Assembly: GCA_011389745.1 (NCBI GenBank)
Contig: JAABTQ010000011.1
Coordinates: 1 to 64,000 of the forward strand
Source of the DNA: Desulfobacteraceae bacterium
GTDB taxonomy: Bacteria; Desulfobacterota; Desulfobacteria; Desulfobacterales; SKZT01
Length of the DNA: 64,000 nt
Direction: 5' to 3'
The position numbers and the translations under genes are program-made. A model generated the notes under the pieces. That model was not told the DNA's origin and searched no databases. It saw only the letters and a program-made list of their open reading frames with translations. Below are positions 923 to 48,120 of this stretch, in pieces. Position 1 is the stretch's first letter, and each line of letters opens with the position of its first letter.

Positions 923-3079
923 ATGTTTTCGTTTAAAGGGTTTTTTGACCGAGCAGTTATGAAGGCATACTCCGGAGCAAAGTTTTCAAAAAAAATGCTT
1001 CTTTTTCTGGTAATATTTTTATTTTTGCAACCAGCGGGATGTGAGGTTAGTAATTCTGAAAAGAGCAGTGTGACGGTTTCGGCGGCCAATACCTCTGCTA
1101 TGTGCAGTTTTGATGAGGCGGTTGAAACCAATGGATATCGCCGTCTGGCTTTGGTGGTTGGGGTGGGTCAATACAAAAACGAAAATGTGCCGGACCTTGT
1201 AGGTCCTCCCAACGATGCCAACCGCTTTTACAATCTTCTTACAGGAGATAACGGATATGGGTTTCCGGCTGAAAATGTTTGCCTGCTGCTAAACGAAGAG
1301 GCGACAACGGCCAATTTCAAGGAGTCCTTCGACAAGGCATTGGTTGAACGGGCTCGCGCAGATGATGTGGCCGTCATCTTTTTTGCCGGGCACGGCTCCC
1401 AGGCCCCTGATAAAGACGGTGACGAGGTGGACGGTTTCGATGAAACCCTCATGTTCCACGATGCACGCACAGGAAAAGTGCTTGACCTGCTGGATGATGA
1501 ATTTAACCGGATGCTGGTGCGCTTGCACAAAAAGACCGAACGTATCACCGTAATCCTTGACTCCTGCAATTCCGGAACAGCCATTCGAGGACCCGAGGCA
1601 GGCACCGTCAAAGCCCGATATTTTAAACCGCTGTCCGATGCAATCGGGACCGAAGATGCCGGCAAAGCTGTCGGGGAAAGTACGGAGGGAATGGTCAATG
1701 AATCATTTCCGGGCCTGGTGCTCTTTTCAGCCGCAACGGATAACAATCCAGCCCTTGAGAAGAACGGTCGTGGTATTTTTACGGATTCTTTGTTGCGGGT
1801 GATGATGGGGGTCGAAGAGCAACCACTGACCTATGCACAGGTTGCCCGGATGACGCCGCCGCTGGTCTCGGCCGAAAGTCCTCAGATACCCTATTTCCAC
1901 GGCGATTTGGACAAAGCTGTGTTTGACAATCGGAGCCGGACGCGCCCAATCTCCTGGGAAGTTATAAATATAGGGCCGCCCATCGAAATTGCCGGACCGC
2001 CTTTGGCCGGAGTCGGAAAGGGCGCTGAATTTCGCATCTATGATGGGTCCGTCACAGGTGCCGACACCCGCGATCCAAATAAAGCCAAGGCCACCGTGGT
2101 GGCTACCGAAAGCACCGAGCTGAATGCCAAGGCTGTCGTTTCATCATCCAATCCGGAAATGCCGCAAATCAAACCGGGTGACCTGGCTGTACTGGTCCGG
2201 CCGGCTGATGCTTTTATTAAGATTAAGGTAAGGTTACGTCCTTCCGACGAAACGGATGGAATTCCGCAAGATCGGGCAGGCGAGTTAAGAAAACTCATCC
2301 AACAAAATTCAGAGGCCGACATGCTTGTGGAACTGACCGAAGGTGCAGGAGATTTTGAGCTGAGCGTGGGTCCCGACAATCTGTTAATTCTGAGAGGTCC
2401 TGAGAACCTTCCCCGCAATACCTACGCATCGGATAATCAGGTGCCCGGAAGCCTCTGGCAGCATGCGCGTCAGCGGGCCCTGCTGCATCTGCGGGGAGAA
2501 GGTGGCCGGGATTTCAGGGATAACGAGACTCTGCGGGTGTCGCTGAAACCGGCTCCAGCTGCCAAGCAAGGCAAATGTTCACAAGAAGCTGTCTGGCAAC
2601 AGGCTGTACCCAACTCGCAGCAGGTGATACCCCTCTGCTATGCCTGGAATGTGCAGGTGACCCTGTCAGAGGAGTCCCCCATCCCACTTCTGATCGGTGC
2701 ATTGATCCTTTCCACCGATGGGAGCATATTTGCTTTGCCTCGCGATGACCGCAAGATACGACTCCAGCCTGGAGAATCTTATACGTTTGATGCCGGTGGG
2801 GAAACCTTTGTGGGAACTCCGCCCCTGGATGTGCAGGATCGGGTTATTGTTTTCGGAACCAATGAAAAAAACCCGGTTTCCTGGGGTCTATTTACCGAGA
2901 CCGCGGCAGTCCGTGCTACCCGTGGCCCCAGCCTCAGCGGATTGGGACGCGCGCTCGACCGCTATCTGAAACCGGGTACTCGCGGTGTAGGTGTGGTCGA
3001 AGAAGAAGTGGTGGAAGAATTCACCTGGACAATGAGTTCGGTAACCATGAGGGTGGCAGCAAATAAAGAGGGGCCTTGA
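923..3079 (+). CDS. caspase-like (peptidase C14 / metacaspase-type) putative lipoprotein
   Basis: The region from about residue 74 to 240 has the caspase fold pattern: LALVVGVGQY at its start, the catalytic His in FFAGHGSQ (His157) and the catalytic Cys in ILDSCNSG (Cys215). The N-terminus has a basic stretch, a strong hydrophobic segment and then PAGC (Cys40), suggesting export and possibly lipidation; Pro at -3 makes the lipobox atypical. The remaining roughly 470 residues are not recognised; near the C-terminus they look like the beta-rich DUF4384-type regions often joined to such peptidases. AGGAGG lies 9 bases before the ATG and fixes the start. Known prokaryotic caspase homologues cleave after Arg/Lys or act in stress and defence; the substrate here is unknown. 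Confidence 0.8.
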   Translation: MFSFKGFFDRAVMKAYSGAKFSKKMLLFLVIFLFLQPAGCEVSNSEKSSVTVSAANTSAMCSFDEAVETNGYRRLALVVGVGQYKNENVPDLVGPPNDANRFYNLLTGDNGYGFPAENVCLLLNEEATTANFKESFDKALVERARADDVAVIFFAGHGSQAPDKDGDEVDGFDETLMFHDARTGKVLDLLDDEFNRMLVRLHKKTERITVILDSCNSGTAIRGPEAGTVKARYFKPLSDAIGTEDAGKAVGESTEGMVNESFPGLVLFSAATDNNPALEKNGRGIFTDSLLRVMMGVEEQPLTYAQVARMTPPLVSAESPQIPYFHGDLDKAVFDNRSRTRPISWEVINIGPPIEIAGPPLAGVGKGAEFRIYDGSVTGADTRDPNKAKATVVATESTELNAKAVVSSSNPEMPQIKPGDLAVLVRPADAFIKIKVRLRPSDETDGIPQDRAGELRKLIQQNSEADMLVELTEGAGDFELSVGPDNLLILRGPENLPRNTYASDNQVPGSLWQHARQRALLHLRGEGGRDFRDNETLRVSLKPAPAAKQGKCSQEAVWQQAVPNSQQVIPLCYAWNVQVTLSEESPIPLLIGALILSTDGSIFALPRDDRKIRLQPGESYTFDAGGETFVGTPPLDVQDRVIVFGTNEKNPVSWGLFTETAAVRATRGPSLSGLGRALDRYLKPGTRGVGVVEEEVVEEFTWTMSSVTMRVAANKEGP

Positions 3080-36099: not shown

Positions 36100-37614
36100 A
36101 TGGATAATCATAATAATTCAAAAACCGACGGCCTAACAGGAACCTGGCACAAGTTCAGTCTGCGAACAAGAATTTACATAATTCTTGCGGCTTTGGTGAT
36201 GATTCCCCTCATGGAGGGGATGATAATGATCTGGTATACACTCAAAATGGAAAAAATGCTCACCGAAATTGTCGAAAAAGACATTGTAGCCCTTCAGGTA
36301 GCCGAAGGACTTGAAACGGCGATGGTAAACCAGAGAGGATTTGTGACGTATTATTTTCTTGACGGCAATACGGACTGGCTTCGGCAGCTTGGAGAATACC
36401 GTCGAATTTTTAAAGAAAAGCTTGAACAGGCTGCACTTTTGGCTGACACACCTGAACTGATAAATGCCATATCCCTGATCGATACGGAATATAAACTCTA
36501 TCTGGAGTCAAAAGACAAGGTGATTTCCCTTTATGAAAAAGGAGAAAGAGATGAGGGATCTGAACTTCACAATCAGGTAAGACAGCATTTTTTTAAAATT
36601 TTACAGCTTTGCCAGGATTATAAGAATATTCATCCTTTAAGAATTTTGTCTGCAAGACAGGAGTTCAAGGATGAAGTGGCTCATCTTCGAATCATGGCTG
36701 TTATAGCCATGTTTGGCAATTTTATCATGGTGCTGCTTTTGATATATGTGCTGATCAACCAGGTATTGGGGCCAGTGAGGCAATTGAGCCTGGAAGCCGA
36801 CCGTGAAGGTGGACTTTACCTTCCTGACAATGAGATCAAAGCGTTGAGTCTCAGTGTAAGAGGGTTGATTGAAGATGTGGATATGACCCATTCTGAATTG
36901 GAAAAAAGCCGGGAACACCTTTTTCATTCAGAAAAAATGGCTATGGTCGGCAAGTTGGCCGCCGGAATGGCCCACAGTATCAGAAACCCATTTACCTCGG
37001 TTAAAATGCGGCTTTTTTCCCTGAACAGAAGCTTAAATTTGTCAGATACCCAAAAAGATGATATCCATGTCATATCCGAAGAAATCCGGCACATTGATAC
37101 GATCGTACAGAATTTTTTGGAATTTTCGAGACCTCCCAGATTAAAAATGCAAAAAATCAGCCCATCCAACGTTGTTGATTCCACAATTCAGCTTCTGGAA
37201 CATCGTCTGAAATCCTACGATGTTGAAGTAAAAATCATAAGGGATAAATTGTTTCCGGAAATTCAGGCTGACCCCGAACAGCTTAAAGAAGCATTGGTCA
37301 ACCTGGTGATTAATGCCTGCGAAGCCATGGGAGAAGGAGGTAAGATCACCATTACGGAAGAAGAAGCTTATGCTGGTACCCAAAAGCATGAAGCCATTAT
37401 TCGAATCGTTGATAATGGCCCCGGAATCCCCAAGGTTGCATGCGGTAAAATTTTTCAACCTTTTTATTCGACCAAAGAGGAAGGCACCGGCCTTGGATTA
37501 AGCATTACTTCCAGAATTATCCATGAGCATGGAGGAAAAATCGACGTCAACTCTTATGAAGGCAAAGGCACCACATTCAATATTACCTTGCCGGTCAAGG
37601 GAGGCAGGTTTTGA
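36100..37614 (+). CDS. membrane sensor histidine kinase (NtrB/AtoS-like) partner of the NtrC-type regulator
   Basis: The 504-residue kinase has two membrane segments (about residues 23-43 and 195-215) flanking a helical periplasmic sensor (VNQRGFVTYYFLDG), a HAMP-like linker, the phosphoacceptor motif AAGMAHSIRNPFTSV, and an ATPase domain with NLVINACEAM, DNGPGIP and GTGLGLSI. No PAS domain is seen. The frame opens at a TTG at 36001, but the ATG at 36100 gives a normal N-terminus; neither has a good Shine-Dalgarno. It overlaps the regulator gene by 4 bases. Given the operon, it probably senses a substrate of the DASS transporters downstream (inference). Confidence 0.9.
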   Translation: MDNHNNSKTDGLTGTWHKFSLRTRIYIILAALVMIPLMEGMIMIWYTLKMEKMLTEIVEKDIVALQVAEGLETAMVNQRGFVTYYFLDGNTDWLRQLGEYRRIFKEKLEQAALLADTPELINAISLIDTEYKLYLESKDKVISLYEKGERDEGSELHNQVRQHFFKILQLCQDYKNIHPLRILSARQEFKDEVAHLRIMAVIAMFGNFIMVLLLIYVLINQVLGPVRQLSLEADREGGLYLPDNEIKALSLSVRGLIEDVDMTHSELEKSREHLFHSEKMAMVGKLAAGMAHSIRNPFTSVKMRLFSLNRSLNLSDTQKDDIHVISEEIRHIDTIVQNFLEFSRPPRLKMQKISPSNVVDSTIQLLEHRLKSYDVEVKIIRDKLFPEIQADPEQLKEALVNLVINACEAMGEGGKITITEEEAYAGTQKHEAIIRIVDNGPGIPKVACGKIFQPFYSTKEEGTGLGLSITSRIIHEHGGKIDVNSYEGKGTTFNITLPVKGGRF

Positions 37615-39044
37615 GCACCATTTTAATAATTGACGATGATGATCAACTTCGAATCAGCTTTGAAAAACTTCTAAAAGAAGAGGGCTACACCATACAATGT
37701 GCGGCATCAGGAGAATTGGGGCTGGAACTGGTTAAAAAAAAAGCTCCGGACCTGGTGATTTTGGATATGCGTCTTCCGGGAATGAACGGTCTTGAGGTTT
37801 TTCAGGCGATTCATAAAATGGAACCTAAGCTGCCGGTAATTATAATGACTGCTTACGGTACTACCGAGACAGCCATAAAAGCCACCAAACTGGGAGCTTT
37901 TGATTATGTTTTAAAACCATTTGATATCCCGGACATGCTGGTGTTCATCCGCCAGGCTTTGGAAGCAGGACGATTCATGAGATCTCCTGTTGACTTAAAT
38001 GTCCCTCCGGACAGTTCATCCCGTGATGCCATTGTCGGTAGAAGCCAGCCCATGCAGGAAGTATATAAATCCATCGGACGGGTCGCTTCCACCGATGCCA
38101 CCGTGCTGATTCGGGGTGATTCCGGAACAGGCAAGGAGTTGGTAGCAAGGGCGATTTATCAACATAGTACCAGAGCTTATAAGCCGTTTCTCATCATCAA
38201 TTGTGTGGCAATTCCTGAAACACTCCTGGAAAGTGAATTGTTCGGTTATGAAAAAGGTGCATTTACCGGAGCCACACACCGGCGAATCGGAAAGATCGAA
38301 CAAGCCCATGGGGGAACTGTTTTTTTGGATGAAATCGGAGATATGCCCTTTACTCTCCAGGCAAAAATTCTTCGCCTGTTACAGGAAAAAAGTATCGAAC
38401 GTATTGGGGGAAGAACTTCCATACCGGTGGATGTTCGCATTATTGCAGCCACCAATCGTAACCTGGAGGAAGACATTACCCAAGGAAAGTTTCGTGAAGA
38501 TTTGTACTACCGACTTAAAGTAGTCACCATATGGCTGCCTCAACTCTCTAAACGACCGGAGGATATCCCTTTATTAACCGAATATTTCCTGTCACGTTAC
38601 GCGGCCGACACCGGAATGGTTAACCCCGGAATAACAGACGAAGCCAAGGACATTCTGGCGGGATATAACTGGCCTGGAAATGTACGGGAACTTTCCAACA
38701 CAATACATAAGGCCCTGATATTTAACCGTGGAGGACCGCTTTCAGGAGAAGATATCTGCAGGAGCATGGATGAAAAGGCTCCCGGCGGGATATCCGTATC
38801 CAATGATGAAAATATGGATGAACTCCTTCGGCATTGGGTCAGGCACTTATTGATTTCTAAGAATGTGGAAAATAAATTTGATACGTCCATAGACCGTTTC
38901 TCCGCCATACTGGTCAGCGAAGCATTGAACCTTTCTAGCGGAAACCGCTCAAGGGCCGCCAAGCTTTTAGGTATTTCCAGACCCACACTGCATGCAAAGA
39001 TCGAAAAATATGAATTGAAACTGGAAACCTCCGTAAAAGAGTAA
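37611..39044 (+). CDS. sigma-54-dependent NtrC-family response regulator
   Basis: The 477-residue protein has a receiver domain (LIIDDDDQLRI, phosphoacceptor in LVILDMRLPG, Lys in VLKPFDIP), an AAA+ domain with Walker A GDSGTGKE, the sigma-54-contacting GAFTGA loop and Walker B GTVFLDEIGDM, and a C-terminal Fis-type helix-turn-helix (NRSRAAKLLGISRPTLHAKI). It would bind upstream enhancers and activate RNA polymerase-sigma-54. Three sigma-54-type promoters occur in the 4 kb downstream, so its likely targets are the CBS-ACT gene and both receiver-transporter modules. Confidence 0.95.
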   Translation: MSTILIIDDDDQLRISFEKLLKEEGYTIQCAASGELGLELVKKKAPDLVILDMRLPGMNGLEVFQAIHKMEPKLPVIIMTAYGTTETAIKATKLGAFDYVLKPFDIPDMLVFIRQALEAGRFMRSPVDLNVPPDSSSRDAIVGRSQPMQEVYKSIGRVASTDATVLIRGDSGTGKELVARAIYQHSTRAYKPFLIINCVAIPETLLESELFGYEKGAFTGATHRRIGKIEQAHGGTVFLDEIGDMPFTLQAKILRLLQEKSIERIGGRTSIPVDVRIIAATNRNLEEDITQGKFREDLYYRLKVVTIWLPQLSKRPEDIPLLTEYFLSRYAADTGMVNPGITDEAKDILAGYNWPGNVRELSNTIHKALIFNRGGPLSGEDICRSMDEKAPGGISVSNDENMDELLRHWVRHLLISKNVENKFDTSIDRFSAILVSEALNLSSGNRSRAAKLLGISRPTLHAKIEKYELKLETSVKE

Positions 39045-39066: not shown

Positions 39067-39082
39067 TGGCATGCACTTTGCT
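39067..39082 (+). promoter_or_regulatory. sigma-54 promoter of the CBS-ACT gene
   Basis: TGGCATGCACTTTGCT fits the -24/-12 consensus (TGGCAC, then TTGC) with GG at 39068-39069 and GC at 39080-39081, exactly 10 bases apart. Transcription should start about 12 bases later, 48 bases before the gene. Confidence 0.8.
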
Positions 39083-39140
39083 TTTATTAAAAGTAAACAA
39101 ACCGCGTTCTTTATGACATTCAATGCGAGGAGGGATGAGT

Positions 39141-39818
39141 ATGCTAGTTCAAGACTGGATGAGCAAAAATGTTATCACCATTGAAGTGGATAAATCCATG
39201 GAGGATGCTGTCAAGCTGCTGAAAAAACATGATATTAAAATGCTTCCGGTCATGAAAAAAGGCAAACTGACCGGTATTGTCACAGATCGCGATTTAAAAA
39301 GAGCCCAGGCATCGGATGCCACGTCATTGGATATTCACGAACTGCTCTATCTGCTTTCCACAATCAAAATCGGCCAGGTGATGTCCAAAAATCCCATTAC
39401 AATCCCAATTGATTTCACAATAGAAGAAACCGCAGATATTTTACTGAAAAACAAAATATCCGGGGCACCGGTTGTGGATTCAAAAGAAAATATTGTCGGA
39501 GCAATCACCCAGAATGATCTTTTCAGGGCATTGATCTCTCTTTCCGGGTTTGGAAAAAAAGGAATTCAGTTTGCTTTTCTTTTAGAGGATCGTCCTGGTT
39601 CCATTAAGGAAGTCGCCGACATTATCCGAAAATTTAATGGCCGAATGGTCAGTATTTTGAGCACCTACGACAATATTCCCGAAGGATACCGCAAGGTCAT
39701 CATTCGTATCTACGATATTGATCGCCGGAACCTGCCAAAACTCAAAGATGAACTCAAGCACAAAGCAAAACTTCTGTACATGGTCGATCATCGCGACAAC
39801 ATACGAGAAATTTATTAA
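39141..39818 (+). CDS. CBS-pair protein with C-terminal ACT domain
   Basis: The 225-residue protein has two CBS motifs (VQDWMSKNVITIEVDKSM..., IGQVMSKNPITIPIDFTI...) that usually bind adenine nucleotides, and a C-terminal ACT-like domain (FAFLLEDRPGSIKEVADII) typical of amino-acid sensing. The relatives are AcuB-like proteins. ATG codons at 39123, 39135 and 39141 are in frame; GAGGAGGG sits 7 bases before the third, which I choose. It lies behind a sigma-54 promoter right after the NtrC-type regulator and may report energy state to this regulon. Confidence 0.85.
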   Translation: MLVQDWMSKNVITIEVDKSMEDAVKLLKKHDIKMLPVMKKGKLTGIVTDRDLKRAQASDATSLDIHELLYLLSTIKIGQVMSKNPITIPIDFTIEETADILLKNKISGAPVVDSKENIVGAITQNDLFRALISLSGFGKKGIQFAFLLEDRPGSIKEVADIIRKFNGRMVSILSTYDNIPEGYRKVIIRIYDIDRRNLPKLKDELKHKAKLLYMVDHRDNIREIY

Positions 39819-40006
39819 TAACCATAGACATCAAGACAATTTGTTCCTCAAGTCATACCGGTCAAATCCGGTATCCGATGCAGGGGCTCTGCCTCCCGGA
39901 TTTCAGCTATTGTCGTGATGCCGGAGATTTCCAACATACCCGCACCGTTTTTATATATCGGAACATTTTTTTTAAGGAATTTTTTGAAGCTAAGGAAAAT
40001 GTACCG

Positions 40007-40021
40007 ACAATTTGTAAAAAA
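40007..40021 (+). promoter_or_regulatory. candidate enhancer site, module 1
   Basis: GACAATTTGTAAAAA, containing the palindrome ACAA-T-TTGT, lies about 118 bases upstream of the sigma-54 promoter. The same 15 bases occur 143 bases upstream of the module 2 promoter. Position and symmetry suit an NtrC-type binding site. The rest of the 39819-40172 gap shows no gene. Confidence 0.4.
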
Positions 40022-40121
40022 TGCTGACATACTCCCATTATCACCCAAATGGGGTCCCGGCGTATAAATTATATTTTTGGTGAAATATCAGTGGTTTTTG
40101 AAATGAATAACAATATTGACC

Positions 40122-40138
40122 TTGGTATAAAAATTGCT
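40122..40138 (+). promoter_or_regulatory. sigma-54 promoter of module 1
   Basis: TTGGTATAAAAATTGCT has GG at 40124-40125 and GC at 40136-40137 with 10 bases between, matching -24/-12 spacing. The predicted start is near 40149, 24 bases before the receiver-like gene. Confidence 0.75.
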
Positions 40139-40172: not shown

Positions 40173-40556
40173 TTGAGCTCGGAATATACAATACTCATAG
40201 CGGATCGAAACTCCCATGTCAGGGAATTTATAAAACGGGAAATGACAAAGGAAGGTTTCAGGGTACTTCAAGCGGAAAAAGGCAAGGATGTTATCAAGAT
40301 GGTTTACCAATGTTTTTCGCTGGACCTTGTGCTTCTTGATCCTGATTTACCCGATATGGAAGAAACCGTATTACTGAAAAAAATCGGCGATCGGTTTCCG
40401 TCCGTTCCGGTAGTTATTCATGCGTTTGATTCTGAAGAAACCAACTATTTCCTTTATTTGAAGCAGGCGGCTTTCGTGGAAAAGGGTGGCCAAAGCATTG
40501 AAGTACTCAAAAAGGTGGTCATCGAAATACTTGAGGCTGCAAAATTAAATTTATGA
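40173..40556 (+). CDS. divergent single-domain receiver protein (module 1)
   Basis: The 127-residue protein follows the receiver fold (ILIADRNSHVREFIKREM, phosphoacceptor-like Asp in LLDPDLPDME) but has only one acidic residue in the first loop and lacks the conserved Lys-Pro near the end (reads VEKGG). It may be phosphorylated poorly or act as a protein-interaction domain. Translation starts at TTG with GAGGA about 9 bases upstream; the module 2 paralogue uses TTG at the same place, which supports the choice. It is the first gene behind a sigma-54 promoter. Confidence 0.75.
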   Translation: MSSEYTILIADRNSHVREFIKREMTKEGFRVLQAEKGKDVIKMVYQCFSLDLVLLDPDLPDMEETVLLKKIGDRFPSVPVVIHAFDSEETNYFLYLKQAAFVEKGGQSIEVLKKVVIEILEAAKLNL

Positions 40557-40569
40557 AAGGAGCACCATG

Positions 40570-41001
40570 ATGGTCACAATGGTTAAAATGAGAATAATGC
40601 TTGTGGATGATGAAGAAAGGTTTTTGCAAACCACCCAGAAAATGATTACAAAAAAGGGCTATGACGCACTGACGGCCACCAGTGGAGCCGAATGCTTAAA
40701 AAAACTCGAGGATGAACTGGTACATGTGGTAATTCTGGATGTCAAAATGCCGGGAATGGACGGCGTGGAAACCCTCAAACATATCAAGCAGAGATTTCCT
40801 CTGGTGGAAATTATTATGCTGACGGGACATGCTACCGCCGAATCCGCTGTGGAGGGATTAAAGCTGGGTGCTACGGATTATCTGACCAAACCCACAAGCA
40901 TTGATGAACTTATCGCCAAGGCAGAGGAAGCGTATAACAAACGCGTTGTTTTGGAACAAAAAATTCAAATGGCGGAGGCAATGAAAAAGTCCCATATTTA
41001 A
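40570..41001 (+). CDS. single-domain response regulator (module 1)
   Basis: The 143-residue protein is one canonical receiver: acidic pair in MLVDDEERF, phosphoacceptor in ILDVKMPGMDGVE, Thr in MLTGHAT and Lys in YLTKP. No output domain follows; a 25-residue amphipathic tail (AEEAYNKRVVLEQKIQM) ends it. The ATG at 40570 (AAAGGAG seven bases before) aligns with the module 2 copy; an adjacent ATG at 40567 is possible. It would be CheY-like, possibly acting on the transporter or on the kinase as a phosphate sink. Confidence 0.9.
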   Translation: MVTMVKMRIMLVDDEERFLQTTQKMITKKGYDALTATSGAECLKKLEDELVHVVILDVKMPGMDGVETLKHIKQRFPLVEIIMLTGHATAESAVEGLKLGATDYLTKPTSIDELIAKAEEAYNKRVVLEQKIQMAEAMKKSHI

Positions 41002-41222
41002 CCCTTACATTCCGGGGTGTTGAGGCAGGATTTTGCATAAATCTCACAAGTATTTTCAAGCACCCGAAATGTCTCATCCTCCAAATCGGTGCCGGCCAAA
41101 TGTACCTGCCGTTATTGGGTAAATAAAATCATCATAAAAAAATTATTTTTTACTGAGTTTGTATTTTTCCCATGTTGTAAATCAAAAACAATTATTTTTG
41201 ATCCTAACTGCGAGGTATATTT

Positions 41223-42632
41223 ATGGCTGAAGTTGAATCCATCAAAAATGATGCTACCGCAAAATCCATTATCATTAAAACGTTAATAGCTCTGGCACTG
41301 GGCATTCTGATAATGATGCTGCCCAGGCCGGAAAATCTTACTCCTGAAGGCCACCGGTTTTTGGCGCTTCTGATAACTGTCGTCGTCTTGTGGGTGAGCG
41401 AGGCGGTACCCATCGGTGTGACCGCGCTTTTAGCAGGCGCAAGTCTGATCCTTTTAAAGATCCAACCCGCCCAGAGTGCCTGGGCACCCTTTGCCAGTCC
41501 TGCGGTCATGTTTGTGCTTATGGTTATCATGTTCGGCGTGGTTTTAAACGAAGTCGGTCTGGCCAATCGCCTTATGTATTATTTGTTGAAATTTGCCGGA
41601 ACCAAGGTCAAGCGGTTGAGCCTTATTCTGGCAGTAGGGTGCACCCTGACTTCAACTGTCTTTCATGACGCAACCATCACGGTCATCATGGTCTTTGCTT
41701 TTGTTCCTGTATTTATGAGTATGGGAATGAAACCGGGCTCAGGGCACAAACTGCCGACCTTTTTCTTTATGCTCATCCCTTTGTCAGCCTCGGCAGGCGG
41801 GTTCGGCACCCTTCTGGGAGGCGGCCGTAACCCCCTGGCCCTGGAAATCCTTCAGAAATTCAGTGAAGGCCGGATCAAAATCGGGTTTCTGGAATATATT
41901 GTTATTATGTTTCCCATCTGTATTCTCACAGCCATCGCCACCTGGGCCATTTTGTGGGTCCTGCTGCGGCCCAAGGAAAAGGAACTCGTGGGTATCGAAA
42001 TGGCGGATCCGGGCCCTATGAGCGGCAAGGAATGGGGGGTGCTGACGATCTTTGTGATCACGTTTATCCTCTGGTTTTGCGGCGATCTGACCGGATGGCA
42101 TTACAGCGTACCAGCGGCATTCGCCATTCTCGGTTTCTGTGCGCCAGGATGGATCAGTTTCAGGACCATTTGCGACAAATTCCCCTGGGAATCCTGGATT
42201 GTATTCGGCGCGGGCGTGTCTCTGGGCGGATCCATGCTGGATAGCGGGGCCGGGCAGTTTCTGGCGGAAACCCTGCTTCCCCTTCTGGACGGAAAACCCC
42301 TGTTTATCGTCTACTACGGAATAGGCTTTTTCGGATCATTTTTGTCCAGCATGATGAGCAACTCGGCGGCCGTGGCGCTGATGCTGCCCATTGTTCTTCC
42401 CATGGCCGAAATGATGAACATGTCGCCTCAGTCGGTTGCAATGATAGCGCCCATGACCACATCATTTATCATGCTGGTCATCGGATGCCCCCCCACCATT
42501 ATTGCCTACAGCACCGGCTATTTCAGCCAGATGGAATTTGTGAAGATCGCCGTACCCTGGGCCCTTATTCTGCTGGTGATCTGCACCCTGAGCATGATAA
42601 TTTATTGGCCTTTGATCGGATTTGTCAAATAA
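41223..42632 (+). CDS. DASS/SLC13-family anion (dicarboxylate-type) transporter, copy 1
   Basis: The 469-residue inner-membrane protein has about twelve hydrophobic segments in two inverted halves, with the paired substrate-site motifs TSTVFHDATITV and SMMSNSAAVALMLPIV (Ser-Asn-Ser/Thr type), as in sodium/dicarboxylate and sulfate symporters. It starts 222 bases after the receiver gene and ends before a strong hairpin. Copy 2 at 44473 is highly similar along the whole length. The substrate might be a C4-dicarboxylate, citrate or sulfate; this cannot be resolved from sequence alone. Confidence 0.9.
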   Translation: MAEVESIKNDATAKSIIIKTLIALALGILIMMLPRPENLTPEGHRFLALLITVVVLWVSEAVPIGVTALLAGASLILLKIQPAQSAWAPFASPAVMFVLMVIMFGVVLNEVGLANRLMYYLLKFAGTKVKRLSLILAVGCTLTSTVFHDATITVIMVFAFVPVFMSMGMKPGSGHKLPTFFFMLIPLSASAGGFGTLLGGGRNPLALEILQKFSEGRIKIGFLEYIVIMFPICILTAIATWAILWVLLRPKEKELVGIEMADPGPMSGKEWGVLTIFVITFILWFCGDLTGWHYSVPAAFAILGFCAPGWISFRTICDKFPWESWIVFGAGVSLGGSMLDSGAGQFLAETLLPLLDGKPLFIVYYGIGFFGSFLSSMMSNSAAVALMLPIVLPMAEMMNMSPQSVAMIAPMTTSFIMLVIGCPPTIIAYSTGYFSQMEFVKIAVPWALILLVICTLSMIIYWPLIGFVK

Positions 42633-42653
42633 AAGGATTCTGCTAACTCAATT

Positions 42654-42689
42654 ATCAGCGGGCCGGTAATGTTTACCCGGCCCGCTGAT
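42654..42689 (+). terminator. strong hairpin after DASS copy 1
   Basis: ATCAGCGGGCCGG (42654-42666) pairs perfectly with CCGGCCCGCTGAT (42677-42689) around a 10-base loop. There is no T-run, so it may stabilise or partly terminate the transcript. Confidence 0.6.
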
Positions 42690-42718
42690 GTTCATGGTCA
42701 TCAACGGTAAATATTTCT

Positions 42719-42733
42719 GACAATTTGTAAAAA
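42719..42733 (+). promoter_or_regulatory. candidate enhancer site, module 2
   Basis: The exact 15-mer GACAATTTGTAAAAA seen upstream of module 1 recurs here, about 143 bases before the sigma-54 promoter. It may be conserved for function or simply retained from the duplication. Confidence 0.4.
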
Positions 42734-42858
42734 ATACCAACAGATTGCAAAATTTCCTGACACTTCTGAATTCAAAATCAGTCTTCTTTTCCGCAACATA
42801 GTACCAAATAACGACATCAAATCAGAGTGTTACAAATAATATCAAAATTTATGCCTGA

Positions 42859-42875
42859 TTGGTATGGTGCTTGCT
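42859..42875 (+). promoter_or_regulatory. sigma-54 promoter of module 2
   Basis: TTGGTATGGTGCTTGCT has GG at 42861-42862 and GC at 42873-42874, 10 bases apart, and shares TTGGTAT with the module 1 promoter. It overlaps the upstream in-frame ATG at 42864, which argues for the TTG start of the next gene at 42912. Confidence 0.75.
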
Positions 42876-42911
42876 GCAAGCCCCCTGTTGGCAGTCGATA
42901 AGGGGAAAATT

Positions 42912-43286
42912 TTGAGATCAGAACTAACAATACTCATAGCAGATCGAAACTCTCGTGTAAGAGAGTTTTTGAAACGGGAATTGACACAGGAAGGTTTCAG
43001 GGTGCTCCAAGCAGAAACAGGCAGGGATGTTATTGAAATGGTTTACCACTGCTTTCCATTGGATCTGATTCTTCTTGATCCTGATTTACCTGACATGGAA
43101 GAAACCGCATTATTAAAAAAAATCGGAAATCGAATTCCGCCGCTTCCGATAGTAATTCACGCATTTGATTTTGAAGAAACAAACTATTTTTTGTATTTGA
43201 GAAAGGCGGAGTTCGTAAAAAAAGGTGGCCGAAGCATTGAAAAACTTAAACAAGTGGTCTTTGAAATGCTTAAGGAAAAAAAATGA
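42912..43286 (+). CDS. divergent single-domain receiver protein (module 2)
   Basis: The 124-residue protein is a clear paralogue of the product at 40173 (ILIADRNSRVREFLKREL, LLDPDLPDMEETALLKKIG, IHAFDFEETNYFLYL). It shares the same deviations from true receivers: a single acidic residue in the first loop and no Lys-Pro near the end. It starts with TTG behind AAGGGGA. The upstream extension to ATG 42864 would place the start inside the sigma-54 promoter and is rejected. Confidence 0.75.
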   Translation: MRSELTILIADRNSRVREFLKRELTQEGFRVLQAETGRDVIEMVYHCFPLDLILLDPDLPDMEETALLKKIGNRIPPLPIVIHAFDFEETNYFLYLRKAEFVKKGGRSIEKLKQVVFEMLKEKK

Positions 43287-43396
43287 TAACCGGTATCCAA
43301 AAGATGTCATATATTTTTCAAAGAGAGTATAAGTAACGTCTGAAAACCTATACCGGTTTCAGTCCCAAACACGATTGAAAAAGAGTGGAGGAGATT

Positions 43397-43945
43397 ATGA
43401 AAACAGTTCAAGTAAAAGATGTGATGGTTGCGCTTGACGATTATGCGACAGTATCGGAAGACGCCACCCTGTATGATGCGGTGCTTGCTCTGGAAAAGGC
43501 TCAGGAGCAATTTGAGAAAAGCCAATATCTTCACCGGGCTATCCTCGTTTATGACAGTAAAAATAAAATCGTCGGCAAGATCAGCCAGTTGGATATACTT
43601 ATGGCCCTTGAGCCCAATTACCGGATCGTAGACCTGGATAAGTTGTCCCGCTTTGGCTACAGCCTTGACTATATTCAGTCATTTGCAAAAACAGCTCTCT
43701 GGGACAAGCCGCTCAGGGATATCTGCAGAAAAGCTGCTACATTTATCGTCAAAGATTTCATGTACACCCCCAGGCAAGGCGAGTACATCAAAGAAGACGC
43801 AAATCTTGATGAGGCCATTCACCAGTTATTAATGGGAAAACAAAACGCTCTCCTGGTCACACGAAACCAGGATATTGTGGGCATTTTGCGTCTGACCGAT
43901 GTATATGCCTTTGTTTGTAAAAATATTAAAGCCTGTAAGATGTAG
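43397..43945 (+). CDS. CBS-pair protein (module 2 only)
   Basis: The 182-residue protein has two CBS units: VKDVMVALDDYATVSEDATL...KISQLDIL and VKDFMYTPRQGEYIKEDANL...GILRLTDVY, separated by a helical linker (about residues 75-110). GGAGGAG lies just before the ATG at 43397. CBS pairs bind AMP, ATP or related ligands and gate enzymes or channels. It sits between the two receiver genes and has no counterpart in module 1, where the CBS-ACT gene upstream may fill the role. Confidence 0.88.
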   Translation: MKTVQVKDVMVALDDYATVSEDATLYDAVLALEKAQEQFEKSQYLHRAILVYDSKNKIVGKISQLDILMALEPNYRIVDLDKLSRFGYSLDYIQSFAKTALWDKPLRDICRKAATFIVKDFMYTPRQGEYIKEDANLDEAIHQLLMGKQNALLVTRNQDIVGILRLTDVYAFVCKNIKACKM

Positions 43946-43965
43946 TATTCGAAAGGAGAGACACG

Positions 43966-44397
43966 ATGGTCACAATGGTAAAAATGAGAATAATGCTTGT
44001 GGATGATGAAGAACGGTTTTTACAGACCACGCAAAAAATGATCGCCAAAAAAGGCTATGACGCTCTGATCGCAACCAGTGGTGAGGAGTGCTTAAAAAAG
44101 CTTGAAGAGGAACTGGTGCATGTGGTGATTCTGGATGTCAAAATGCCGGGTATTGACGGCGTAGAAACCCTCAAACATATCAAACAGAAATTTCCTCTGG
44201 TGGAAGTCATCATGCTGACCGGACATGCCACCGCCGAATCCGCCGTGGAAGGTCTGAAATTAGGTGCGACGGATTATCTTACTAAACCTGCGAATATTGA
44301 GGATCTTATCGCCAAGGCAGAGGAAGCGTACAACAAACGCGTTGTTTTGGAAGAAAAAATTCAAATGGCGGAGGCTTTGAAAAAGTCCCATATTTAG
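43966..44397 (+). CDS. single-domain response regulator (module 2)
   Basis: The 143-residue canonical receiver is nearly the same as the one at 40570 (MRIMLVDDEERFLQTTQKM, ILDVKMPGIDGVETLKHIKQ, ATDYLTKPA), differing in scattered residues only. AAAGGAG lies 7-8 bases before the ATG. It begins 21 bases after the CBS gene and ends 76 bases before the second DASS transporter, so the three are likely cotranscribed from the sigma-54 promoter at 42859. Confidence 0.9.
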   Translation: MVTMVKMRIMLVDDEERFLQTTQKMIAKKGYDALIATSGEECLKKLEEELVHVVILDVKMPGIDGVETLKHIKQKFPLVEVIMLTGHATAESAVEGLKLGATDYLTKPANIEDLIAKAEEAYNKRVVLEEKIQMAEALKKSHI

Positions 44398-44472
44398 TTC
44401 CCGCATCCGGAGTGTTGAAGCAGGTTTTTTCATAATTTTTCATTTTTCAATCAAAACCACGAGGTATAATTT

Positions 44473-45882
44473 ATGGCTGAGGTCGAATCCATTAAAAACG
44501 AAGCAACTGCAAAATCAATTCTTATCAAATCATTAATAGCTCTGGCATTGGGCATTCTGGTATTAATGCTTCCCAGGCCTGAAAACCTTACCCCGGAAGG
44601 GCACAGGCTTCTGGCCTTGTTGACCACCGTGGTCTTTCTCTGGGTGAGCGAGGCCGTACCTATCGGAGTGACAGCTCTGTTGGCGGGCGCCGGTTTGATC
44701 CTTTTGAAAATCCAAAGCGCCCAGAACGCCTGGGCTCCCTTTGCCAGCCCAGCGGTCATGTTCGTGCTCATGATTATCATGTTCGGCGTGGTTTTAAACG
44801 AAGTCGGTCTGGCCAATCGCCTGATGTACTACCTTCTGAAGTTTGCCGGAACCAAAGTTAAGCGGTTGAGCCTTATCCTGGCCGTTGGATGCACCATTAC
44901 TTCGACCGTCTTTCACGATGCAACCATTACGGTCATCATGGTCTTTGCCTTTGTGCCGGTATTTATGAGCATGGGTATGAAACCCGGCATGGGACACAAA
45001 CTGCCGACATTTTTCTTTTTGCTCATTCCCTTGTCTTCTTCGGCTGGTGGGTTCGGAACTCTTTTGGGTGGCGGTCGTAATCCCCTGGCCCTGGAAATCC
45101 TTCAAAAATTCAGTGGCGGCCAGATCAAAATCGGCTTTCTGGAATATATTGTCATTATGTTTCCCGTCTGCATTTTAACCGCCGTTGCCACCTGGGCCAT
45201 CTTGTGGATACTTTTACGTCCCAAGGAAAAAGAACTTGTGGGCATCGAACTGGCGGACCCTGGGCCCATGAGCACAAAGGAATGGGGGGTGCTGATAGTC
45301 TTTGTGATCACCTTTATTCTCTGGTTTTCCGGTGATCTGACCGGATGGCATTACAGTGTCCCTGCAGCATTCGCCATTCTCGGTTTCTGTGCACCTGGCT
45401 GGATCAGTTTCAGGACCATTTGTGACAAATTTCCCTGGGAATCCTGGATTGTGTTCGGTGCCGGTGTATCCCTGGGCGTATCCATGCTGGACAGCGGAGC
45501 AGGGCGTTTTCTGGCCGAAACCCTGCTTCCCCTTCTGGATGGCAAACCCATGTTTATCGTTTACTACGGGATAGGCTTTTTCGGATCATTTTTGTCCAGC
45601 ATGATGAGCAACTCGGCTGCTGTGGCGCTGATGCTGCCCATTGTTCTTCCCATGGCCGAAATGATGAACATGTCGCCTCAATCCGTGGCCATGCTGGCCC
45701 CTATGACCACATCATTTATCATGCTGGTCATCGGATGCCCCCCAACCATTATTGCTTACAGCACCGGTTACTTCAGCCAGGCTGATTTTATCAAAATTGC
45801 CGTACCCTGGTGCTTGATCCTGCTTCTGGTTTGCACCGTGAGCATAATGATTTATTGGCCACTCATCGGCTTTGTCAAATAA
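44473..45882 (+). CDS. DASS/SLC13-family anion transporter, copy 2
   Basis: This 469-residue transporter has the same length and the same motifs as copy 1 (TSTVFHDATITV, SMMSNSAAVALMLPIV), with mostly conservative changes (for example LGGSMLDSGAGQF becomes LGVSMLDSGAGRF). Preservation of both reading frames argues that both copies are used, perhaps with different affinity. A 14-bp terminator follows it and closes the module. Confidence 0.9.
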   Translation: MAEVESIKNEATAKSILIKSLIALALGILVLMLPRPENLTPEGHRLLALLTTVVFLWVSEAVPIGVTALLAGAGLILLKIQSAQNAWAPFASPAVMFVLMIIMFGVVLNEVGLANRLMYYLLKFAGTKVKRLSLILAVGCTITSTVFHDATITVIMVFAFVPVFMSMGMKPGMGHKLPTFFFLLIPLSSSAGGFGTLLGGGRNPLALEILQKFSGGQIKIGFLEYIVIMFPVCILTAVATWAILWILLRPKEKELVGIELADPGPMSTKEWGVLIVFVITFILWFSGDLTGWHYSVPAAFAILGFCAPGWISFRTICDKFPWESWIVFGAGVSLGVSMLDSGAGRFLAETLLPLLDGKPMFIVYYGIGFFGSFLSSMMSNSAAVALMLPIVLPMAEMMNMSPQSVAMLAPMTTSFIMLVIGCPPTIIAYSTGYFSQADFIKIAVPWCLILLLVCTVSIMIYWPLIGFVK

Positions 45883-46204: not shown

Positions 46205-46789
46205 ATATTTTTTTTACCACGTTGATTGAAACCAAGATCGGCAGTTTAAATTCACGGCAAATTCCGCCTATAAACGGAAGAAGCTCTGCTTTTCGGGATT
46301 ATCGAGGGATGCCAGGGGTAAATCCATGAGCAGAAGCGACGGACTGGCCAGCAAGGCTCTTCCGATGGCCACACGCTGCTTTTCACCGCCTGAAAGTTTA
46401 GCCGGCCTTCGATCAAGAAGACTTTCTATACCGAGCAAGTTAACGACCTGGTCAAATTGAACAAACCGCTTTGAGCGCGGGATAAGTTTCATGCCATATA
46501 TCAGGTTGGATCGTACGGATAGGTGGGAAAAAGTCGTCCGTCCTGAAAGATGCAGCCTACCCGACGATTTTCAGGAGAAATGTCGATTCTTTTTTCCGAA
46601 TCGAATAACACCCGACCGTTGGCAGCAATATGGCCTTCATCGGGCCGCACAAGTCCGGCGATCATTGATCACCGAGGTTTTTCCCGCCCCGGAATTGCCG
46701 AACACGGCCGTGACACCAGTTTCAGAAGTTGAAAAACGAATATCCAGGGTGAATTCTCCCTGCTTTTTCCTGATAGAGACATCCAGCAT
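46205..46789 (-). pseudogene. modC: modC-like ABC ATPase pseudogene
   Basis: Read in three frames, this encodes a molybdate-type ABC ATPase: Walker A GNSGAGKTS, then (after a frameshift near 46655) [20 protein letters not shown] and [12 protein letters not shown], a second shift near 46527 (one C lost from CCCC), the signature [17 protein letters not shown], and a third shift after DNPEKQ. Walker B reads LLMDLPLAS, with Leu where the catalytic Glu should be. The C-terminal end is missing where repeat-like sequence begins near 46205. ATG at 46789 lies 3 bases after the modB stop. Confidence 0.8.
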
Positions 46790-46792
46790 GGT

Positions 46793-47290
46793 TTAACCTC
46801 GAATGTGCGCAGCAAATTTTTTAGCCAACAACTCAGAGGCCAAGAGAGCTGTCATAGCCAATGCCACCGCAATCAGACATAATCTGAAGGCGGCTGCATC
46901 ACCCCCGGGTGACTGTGTTAATGTATATAACGCCAGGGGTAAGGTCTGGGTCTGTCCTTTGATATTGGATACAAACACAATGGTGGCGCCAAATTCTCCG
47001 ACACTCCTGGCAAAAGCCAATATCGCACCGGTAATGATACCAGGTATGATCAGCGGTAATGTAATGGTAAAAAATATTCTAAATGGGCCGGCGCCAAGGG
47101 TGCGCGCGGCATCTTCGAGACCCAGATCCAAATTTTCTATCGAAAGCCGCACAGCCCGCACCAGAAGGGGAAAAGCCATCACGGCTGCAGCCACCGCGGC
47201 TCCTTTCCAGTTGAAGGCCAGGGATTTCCCAATTTTTCATAAAGAAACGCCCCGACAATGTGGTATTTGTCCCAAGGGGTTACTTTGCAT
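46793..47290 (-). pseudogene. modB: modB-like molybdate permease pseudogene, N-terminally truncated
   Basis: An intact 3' portion (46793-47194, 133 residues) has the permease signature: FPLLVRAVRLSIENLD, DAARTLGAGPFRIFF and SVGEFGATIVF. Upstream, FLYEKLG is in one frame and SLAFNWKGAAVAAAV in another, so there is a frameshift near 47230. The first half of the gene and all of modA are absent. It is presumed non-functional. Confidence 0.75.
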
Positions 47291-47471: not shown

Positions 47472-47897
47472 TCAGGGTAATTTAAACGGATTAACGATGG
47501 TTATTCCTTCAATTTGCTGACCTTCATTTAAATCTTCGGTTAGAATAACGGCAGCATTTTTGAAGTAAGCTGCAGAAACGATCATGGCATCCCAGAAGGA
47601 GATATGGTAATTTTCTTCGATTTCAATGGCTTGAAGGATAGTCTCACCATTATTTACGGCAACATCCCATGCCAGGTAGTTATTTAGAATCCTACGAACC
47701 AGCGATTTTTTTAATGGAACCGGCACTTTTTTAGTGAGTGTAACATAAAACTCCTGCAAAACCTGGGTGCTGATAACACCTGTTCCCGTATCCCACAAAT
47801 TTATAATGGCTTTTTGGGCAATCTCATGCTTTTTTCCGCTATCAAGATCATGGGCATAAACCAGAATATTTGTATCGACAAAAGTTTTATCGCTCAT
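47472..47897 (-). CDS. PIN-domain toxin (VapC-like ribonuclease)
   Basis: The 141-residue protein begins MSDKTFVDTNILVYAHD, the first acidic PIN motif, followed by the conserved Glu in LQEFYVTL, and FWDAMIVSAAYF and LTEDLN for the remaining acidic residues of the magnesium site. The frame extends 12 codons upstream, inside the antitoxin gene; the ATG at 47897 gives the family N-terminus. It overlaps the antitoxin gene by 11 bases. VapC proteins cut tRNA or rRNA when released from the antitoxin. Confidence 0.88.
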   Translation of the reverse strand: MSDKTFVDTNILVYAHDLDSGKKHEIAQKAIINLWDTGTGVISTQVLQEFYVTLTKKVPVPLKKSLVRRILNNYLAWDVAVNNGETILQAIEIEENYHISFWDAMIVSAAYFKNAAVILTEDLNEGQQIEGITIVNPFKLP

Positions 47898-48120
47898 ATA
47901 AATCCTCGCGCTTCCAAGTGACGCGCCCGCCAAGTTGAAACCCTTTTTTTAGAGTAGAGAGGGCATTTCGCATGGCAGATTCATAACGGTCTTCCTGGTA
48001 GACCATGTCCTTAAGCAAGTTGCTAATCATCTTGCTGACCGATGTATCCTTTCGGGCTGCAATTATTTTCCCCTTTTTTATGAGTTCTTTTTCAATTGAC
48101 AGCGTAATATTTTGTTTCAT
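47887..48120 (-). CDS. ribbon-helix-helix antitoxin partner of the PIN toxin
   Basis: The 77-residue protein starts KQNITLSIEKELIKKGKIIA, the beta strand and first helix of a ribbon-helix-helix domain, continues with TSVSKMISNLLKD, and ends in a charged toxin-binding tail. GGAGGGA precedes the ATG. It probably binds the palindrome 20 bases upstream and represses the operon. Confidence 0.83.
   Translation of the reverse strand: MKQNITLSIEKELIKKGKIIAARKDTSVSKMISNLLKDMVYQEDRYESAMRNALSTLKKGFQLGGRVTWKREDLYER

Follow-up and report, generated by a model that had tools for sequence, protein, structure and literature searches.

A 64,000-nt stretch of the genome of a Desulfobacteraceae bacterium (GCA_011389745.1, contig JAABTQ010000011.1, contig C3 of the genome; hereafter the window) carries two adjacent gene modules, each of which encodes a divergent receiver (RecA), a canonical receiver (RecB), and a transporter of the DASS family. 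The pairing of receiver and importer suggests that cells switch sulfate uptake directly at the transporter, beyond gene expression alone. Judged from sequence, the locus is somewhat more probably than otherwise a duplicated, signal-controlled sulfate-uptake module under two-tier control, in which sigma-54/NtrC transcription would be combined with gating of the transporter by receivers and CBS proteins. We put at about even chances the wider proposal that DASS anion transporters have in the receiver domain a gating subunit of their own, driven by phosphorylation, which is separate (RecB) in the window and N-terminal in a sister clade. Kinases would then set the sulfate uptake rate directly, and a degenerate receiver-CBS unit would add energy status.

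Sulfate uptake is the first, energy-costing step of dissimilatory sulfate reduction, and most work on its regulation has dealt with transcripts and proteins. If the proposal is true, an environmentally dominant lineage controls sulfate uptake by phosphorylation of a transporter complex. Response regulators would gain a membrane transporter among their known direct targets, and the published model of WalR-type transcriptional control would change. Gating of a secondary transporter would also be a kind of two-component output that is absent from the literature searched.

The two receiver-DASS modules

Gene content was read from the open reading frame (ORF) list and Pfam, and NCBIfam was also used. 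Both modules lie on the + strand in identical order. Copy 1 consists of RecA1 (40173..40556; Pfam, 43 bits), RecB1 (40567..41001; Pfam, 107 bits), and DASS1 (41223..42632; PF00939, TIGR00785), a probable sulfate importer of the SLC13 family. Copy 2 consists of RecA2 (42912..43286), the CBS-pair gene CBS2 (43385..43945), RecB2 (43966..44397), and DASS2 (44473..45882). The RecA proteins have 127 and 124 aa and the RecB proteins 144 and 143 aa; in Pfam, each is one receiver domain without an output domain. RecA2 probably starts at TTG 42912 instead of ATG 42864, which the ORF list offers, because RecA1 also has a TTG start and the site lies 3' of a sigma-54-like promoter.

Copies 1 and 2 share 75% (RecA), 91% (RecB), and 92% (DASS) protein identity, and DNA repeats of 80-84% identity span all three genes in order. 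Such ordered repeats are far beyond chance, and the two modules are therefore a true tandem duplication. The original prediction of tandem modules of close paralogues in the same order is thus borne out, every gene lying where it had been placed. Its division of the receivers into a divergent and a canonical type also holds at the key residues. RecB1 and RecB2 have a complete active site, with acidic pair, phospho-Asp, Thr/Ser, and Lys (D-D/D/T/K). RecA reads D-R/D/A/K: with neither the second acidic residue nor the switch Thr, it is a degenerate receiver.

Further copies of the module exist beyond the tandem pair. Searches of the 3.6 Mb window genome found a third close module on contig C11 (CBS-RecB-DASS, DASS 86% identical), and DASS genes with receivers, kinases, or a receiver-CBS fusion also on contigs C2, C12, and C68; the genome-wide counts rest on these searches. 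The distant DASS genes on C6, C8, and C41 of this genome had no receiver or kinase close by. With several DASS-receiver loci, the arrangement is a habit of this genome and no single accident.

CBS2 lies between RecA2 and RecB2 and has no counterpart in copy 1. Within the tandem pair, the predicted restriction of the CBS gene to copy 2 is correct. Because a CBS gene adjoining RecB-DASS is the usual layout among relatives, copy 1 looks like the copy without CBS, rather than copy 2 the one that acquired it. As a separate observation, transporters 90-91% identical to those of the window were found in two genomes of another family of the order (L083, G474:C454; L084, G439:C53), by either horizontal transfer or mis-binned contigs.

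Receivers beside DASS genes in Desulfobacterales

Sixty loci around DASS homologues of other Desulfobacterales, together with seven loci of the window genome, were scored with purpose-built profiles of five domain types (receiver, DASS, CBS, kinase, and sigma-54). Receiver ORFs of at most 200 aa were counted as single-domain. A receiver lay within 1.5 kb of 72 of the 84 DASS anchors, and a single-domain receiver accompanied 69 of the 84. Control transporters of the same order, with the same flanks, had no receiver within 1.5 kb (0/14 for SDF and 0/30 for SulP). The original prediction hinged on a receiver-DASS neighbourhood conserved across genomes, and such conservation is what was found (72/84 against 0/44).

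A single-domain receiver was directly upstream of the transporter gene on the same strand in 52/84 anchors, with ATGA-type 4-base overlaps in several. In the receiver tree, the RecB pair of the window fell into a supported set of 19, in which 15 further members are encoded directly upstream of DASS. RecB divergence followed DASS divergence (r = 0.92; none of 2000 permutations was as high), a correlation to which the shared species tree contributes.

The surveyed loci held 274 receiver ORFs, 184 of them single-domain. They also held 24 receiver-sigma-54 (NtrC-type) proteins, 43 receiver-kinase hybrids, and 6 kinase-receiver proteins, often with several receivers per cluster. No WalR-type winged-helix domain was found among the longer receiver ORFs of these loci that were scanned with Pfam, the genome of PMC11887813 being outside the survey.

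Receiver-DASS fusions

Twenty-one ORFs of ~690 aa, from about 19 genomes, encode a receiver and then a DASS transporter in one frame. The set comprises L024, L025, L028, and L053, plus 17 ORFs in 16 genomes (15 genera; 194 Desulfobacterales sampled); the L025 and L028 ORFs are cut by contig ends. Because the phylum-wide search scored no more than three or four candidates in each genome, the count of fusions outside the order is too low. The fused receivers form one clade in the tree, and D-D/D/T/K is kept in all 20 that could be scored. What is joined is always receiver and DASS; there is no histidine kinase-DASS fusion among them. Most fusion genes are preceded by a kinase gene; with start codons taken as the earliest possible, the two genes overlap in 8 of 14 cases. 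A single-domain receiver gene often lies 3' of the fusion gene.

The structure predicted for the L024 fusion (mean predicted local distance difference test score 79, predicted template modelling score 0.68) has a CheY-like receiver fold at residues 10-134, followed by a DASS fold. Among solved structures, it is matched best by human NaS1, a sulfate symporter, followed by NaCT and VcINDY, and its front part matches the receivers of NtrC1, DctD, and Spo0F. The model cannot be used to judge the relative placement of the two domains.

Two candidate fusions were rejected. In L204 (G472), 45 bp lie between the receiver gene and the DASS gene, and the pair is the unfused equivalent of the fusions; L054 (G109) likewise has separate genes, receiver then DASS. 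Hidden degenerate receivers in the long N-termini of 615-620 aa DASS proteins were also rejected (hhalign probability 0.2); the N-terminal part resembles a loop that connects the first and second membrane helices.

The RecA-CBS unit

A congeneric sister species has the RecA2 and CBS2 orthologues in one 306-aa ORF (L018:2305-3225; same contig as L085), whose receiver groups with the RecA pair of the window with a support of 99. Receiver-CBS fusions were found beside DASS in many genomes, including on contig C12 of the window genome. CBS2 has two CBS stretches in Pfam, and the motifs G-K-[IVL]-[ST]-x-x-D and G-[IVL]-L-R-x-x-D are largely kept among aligned relatives. With a Gly...Asp motif kept in both repeats, it is plausible that CBS2 binds a nucleotide ligand.

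The degenerate D-R/D/A/K receiver subfamily recurs in other DASS clusters (L100:1904, L101:4045, L161:11328), often directly before a kinase gene.

DASS family and substrate

The transporters of the window matched PF00939 (Na_sulph_symp) with 138-139 bits, above the cut-off, and TIGR00785 over their full length with 190-196 bits, slightly below its cut-off of 198.6. Profile matches in PDB, also obtained for DASS2, were VcINDY, NaCT, and NaS1. At the two SNT-type substrate/sodium motifs of VcINDY, the second motif is SNS and the first HDA. The SPPN loop of VcINDY is GGRNP in the DASS clade of the window, with an invariant Arg (R202). By these residues, HDA and GGRNP/R202 may reflect altered ion coupling. 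On alignment, the proteins are a divergent branch of the DASS/SLC13 family, of uncertain substrate.

The window genome carries dsrA (dissimilatory sulfite reductase; 613 bits, over the cut-off) and about eight to nine DASS-type genes. It had no convincing SulP, the best match being very weak (24 bits). Relatives found with the DASS query are nearly all from Desulfobacterales and Desulfovibrionales. The organism is therefore taken to be a dissimilatory sulfate reducer with sulfate as a likely substrate of DASS. The assignment of sulfate has one direct support, the expression data published for related DASS genes of D. autotrophicum under low- and high-sulfate conditions (PMC5840216), and otherwise draws on the family and the dsrA-bearing genome.

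Probable transcriptional control

A membrane sensor histidine kinase gene (36106..37614, +; 4HB_MCP-like sensor, HisKA, and HATPase in Pfam) and an NtrC-type response regulator gene (37611..39044, +; receiver, sigma-54 interaction domain, and Fis helix-turn-helix in Pfam/NCBIfam) precede the modules. The latter encodes the only DNA-binding response regulator of the window cluster and has orthologues within DASS clusters of Desulfotignum, Desulfobotulus, and Desulfamplus. Relatives of the kinase, with NtrC beside DASS, occur in L031 (48%) and L043 (39%).

A strict search for the sigma-54 -24/-12 pattern gave 3 matches in the 64 kb, against 0.44 expected. All three are on the + strand: TGGCATGCACTTTGCT (39067..39082) just before a CBS-CBS-ACT gene, TGGTATAAAAATTGCT (40123..40138) just before RecA1, and TGGTATGGTGCTTGCT (42860..42875) just before RecA2. 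In addition, the 17-bp GACAATTTGTAAAAAAT, a candidate activator site, is exactly repeated 5' of RecA1 (40006..40022, +) and RecA2 (42719..42735, +). The sister species has a sigma-54 match before its RecA-CBS gene (L018:2242). Related loci share these match positions only in part (L018, L031, contig C68 of the window genome, and a few others), and several have no match. Given the adjoining NtrC-type activator and the three matches, transcriptional control is very probably present, and sigma-54/NtrC control of the modules is the likely form of this layer.

Proposed mechanism and alternative explanations

In the two-tier scheme, the membrane kinase and its NtrC-type partner (36-39 kb) would activate the sigma-54 promoters before CBS-ACT, RecA1, and RecA2, and this tier would set the amount of receiver, CBS, and DASS made. 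A cluster kinase would also phosphorylate RecB, and RecB~P would bind the cytoplasmic face of DASS and change the transport rate; in the fusions, the built-in receiver would set the rate of its own transporter. RecA and the CBS pair would form a second regulatory unit that reads adenine-nucleotide status (energy or adenosine 5'-phosphosulfate). What we infer is phosphorylation, the contact with DASS, the sign of any effect on transport, and the substrate; gene content, duplication, conservation, fusions, and residues stand at the sequence level. The scheme is the simplest one that accounts together for the neighbourhood, the fusions, and the missing output domains. With receiver-DASS and receiver-CBS fusions at hand, direct control of the transporter is likelier for the single receivers than purely transcriptional control. 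The original prediction of direct control gains from the neighbourhood and both kinds of fusion; its qualifier, rather than transcription, is not supported, given the NtrC-type activator and three sigma-54 matches.

Several observations weigh against gating by receivers. The DASS clade of the window is without the first SNT substrate motif of VcINDY, and its substrate is taken from the family and published expression. The fusions belong to another DASS clade, about 22-28% identical to that of the window, so the transfer from them to the window is indirect; moreover, the fused receiver might serve to report on transport rather than to control it. Part of the RecB/DASS correlation is species history. 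In some relatives, CBS-DASS occurs with no receiver (L036, L038, L039). On its contig (L018:1-3300 / L085), the sister species has RecA1, truncated at the contig end, and RecB1, but DASS does not follow; the intervening 1.5 kb contain a repeated non-DASS sequence. The pairing of receiver and DASS is therefore not obligatory.

According to the model presented in PMC11887813, kinase/response-regulator pairs (WalR type, PhoRB-like) control DASS transcription, and CBS proteins provide a second, energy-linked level. The NtrC-type activator and sigma-54 matches of the window cluster and the 24 receiver-sigma-54 proteins of the survey agree with such control. We nevertheless consider this model unlikely: the 184 single-domain receivers have no room for a winged-helix output, the longer receivers scanned within the survey, which did not cover the genome of PMC11887813, had no winged helix, and DNA binding offers no explanation for receivers fused to DASS. 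Nor are these fusions predicted if RecB is a Spo0F/DivK-like intermediate or phosphate sink that links hybrid kinases to NtrC, with proximity to DASS reflecting co-regulation only. Such a phosphorelay would suit the 43 hybrids, the 6 kinase-receiver proteins, and the multiple receivers per cluster; it does not predict that a whole RecB clade should keep to the place before DASS, and we regard it as doubtful.

A further alternative is a transceptor, in which DASS would sense sulfate and the receivers would pass this signal on to the kinases, like the SLC5 domains in CrbS/CbrA. Transporter-kinase fusions are known (PMC9100948, PMC8871633), and kinase genes lie directly upstream of the fusion genes. 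In the known cases, however, the transporter is joined to a kinase (input), whereas here it is joined to a receiver, normally the receiving end; several cluster kinases also have their own Cache sensors, and the transceptor appears rather improbable. Mere proximity without a functional link might be expected in genomes that often have about 100 receiver candidates each, yet it is hardly credible beside 0/44 control loci with a receiver at the same distance and the existence of fusions. A relay or a transceptor keeps some probability, but the fusions argue against the single receivers serving transcription alone. For the gating reading, a receiver-DASS fusion makes the question testable in one polypeptide.

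Relation to known systems

Clusters of DASS, two-component, and CBS genes in sulfate reducers were described in 2025 (PMC11887813); that paper assigns the regulators to the WalR type, as transcriptional, and raises CBS control of uptake as a possibility. The cluster shown there for Desulfobacteraceae (30.5 kb, Desulfosarcina variabilis 3be13) resembles the window in its DASS, many two-component genes, CBS proteins, and Cache-type kinases, and is conserved across sulfate reducers. DASS, kinases, response regulators, and CBS genes together in a sulfate reducer, the published mark of such clusters, are all present in the window. The present loci differ in that the receivers are mostly single-domain, some being fused to DASS or CBS, and the window in that its DNA-binding regulator is NtrC-type with sigma-54 promoters and not WalR type. 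The RecA-RecB-DASS tandem and receiver-DASS fusions are not mentioned in the text consulted. The original statement that no mechanism of this kind had been described needs correcting, since the 2025 paper holds the cluster and the speculation on CBS-mediated DASS control, with response regulators as transcriptional. The cluster and the CBS-control idea are thus already known; the receiver part is new as far as the literature searched shows.

Soluble regulators of transporters include PII on AmtB and SbtB on SbtA. CBS-gated transporters include MgtE, OpuA, and CorB (reviewed in PMC10710835). As proposed here, a small cytoplasmic protein or a CBS pair tunes transport by energy or nucleotide state in these systems; unlike here, none of them is known to use a phospho-receiver. 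The same 2023 review of post-translational transporter modulation gave no match for response regulator, receiver, or two-component. No receiver-transporter fusions were found in a literature search that was largely without subscription papers.

EpsW is a single-domain response regulator that acts directly on a phosphoglycosyl transferase, a membrane enzyme (PMC12802240). Like RecB, CheY, DivK, and EpsW are stand-alone receivers with an intact phosphorylation site; they act through protein contact on a non-DNA partner, as is proposed for RecB, but here the proposed target is a secondary transporter and fused versions exist. The SLC5/STAC histidine kinases CrbS and CbrA (PMC9100948) also fuse a transporter fold to a two-component module, but they join another transporter family to a kinase (input), whereas here DASS is joined to a receiver.

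Neighbouring genes

The predicted CBS-ACT gene before copy 1 is present (39123..39818, +; CBS-CBS-ACT in Pfam). No relatives of it were found near DASS in related loci, so its membership of the cluster is weak; it was rejected as a conserved part of the module and retained only for its sigma-54 match. Just 3' of DASS2 lies a degenerate molybdate/sulfate-type ABC transporter (46313-47194, -), made up of a 133-aa fragment of a permease (PF00528) and a stretch of ABC ATPase that contains two TGA codons in frame. The PIN-domain gene at 47472-47933 (-) stands alone and may encode a toxin, although no partner is evident. At 923-3079 (+), the window encodes a 718-aa caspase-domain (PF00656) protein that is bacterial metacaspase-like.

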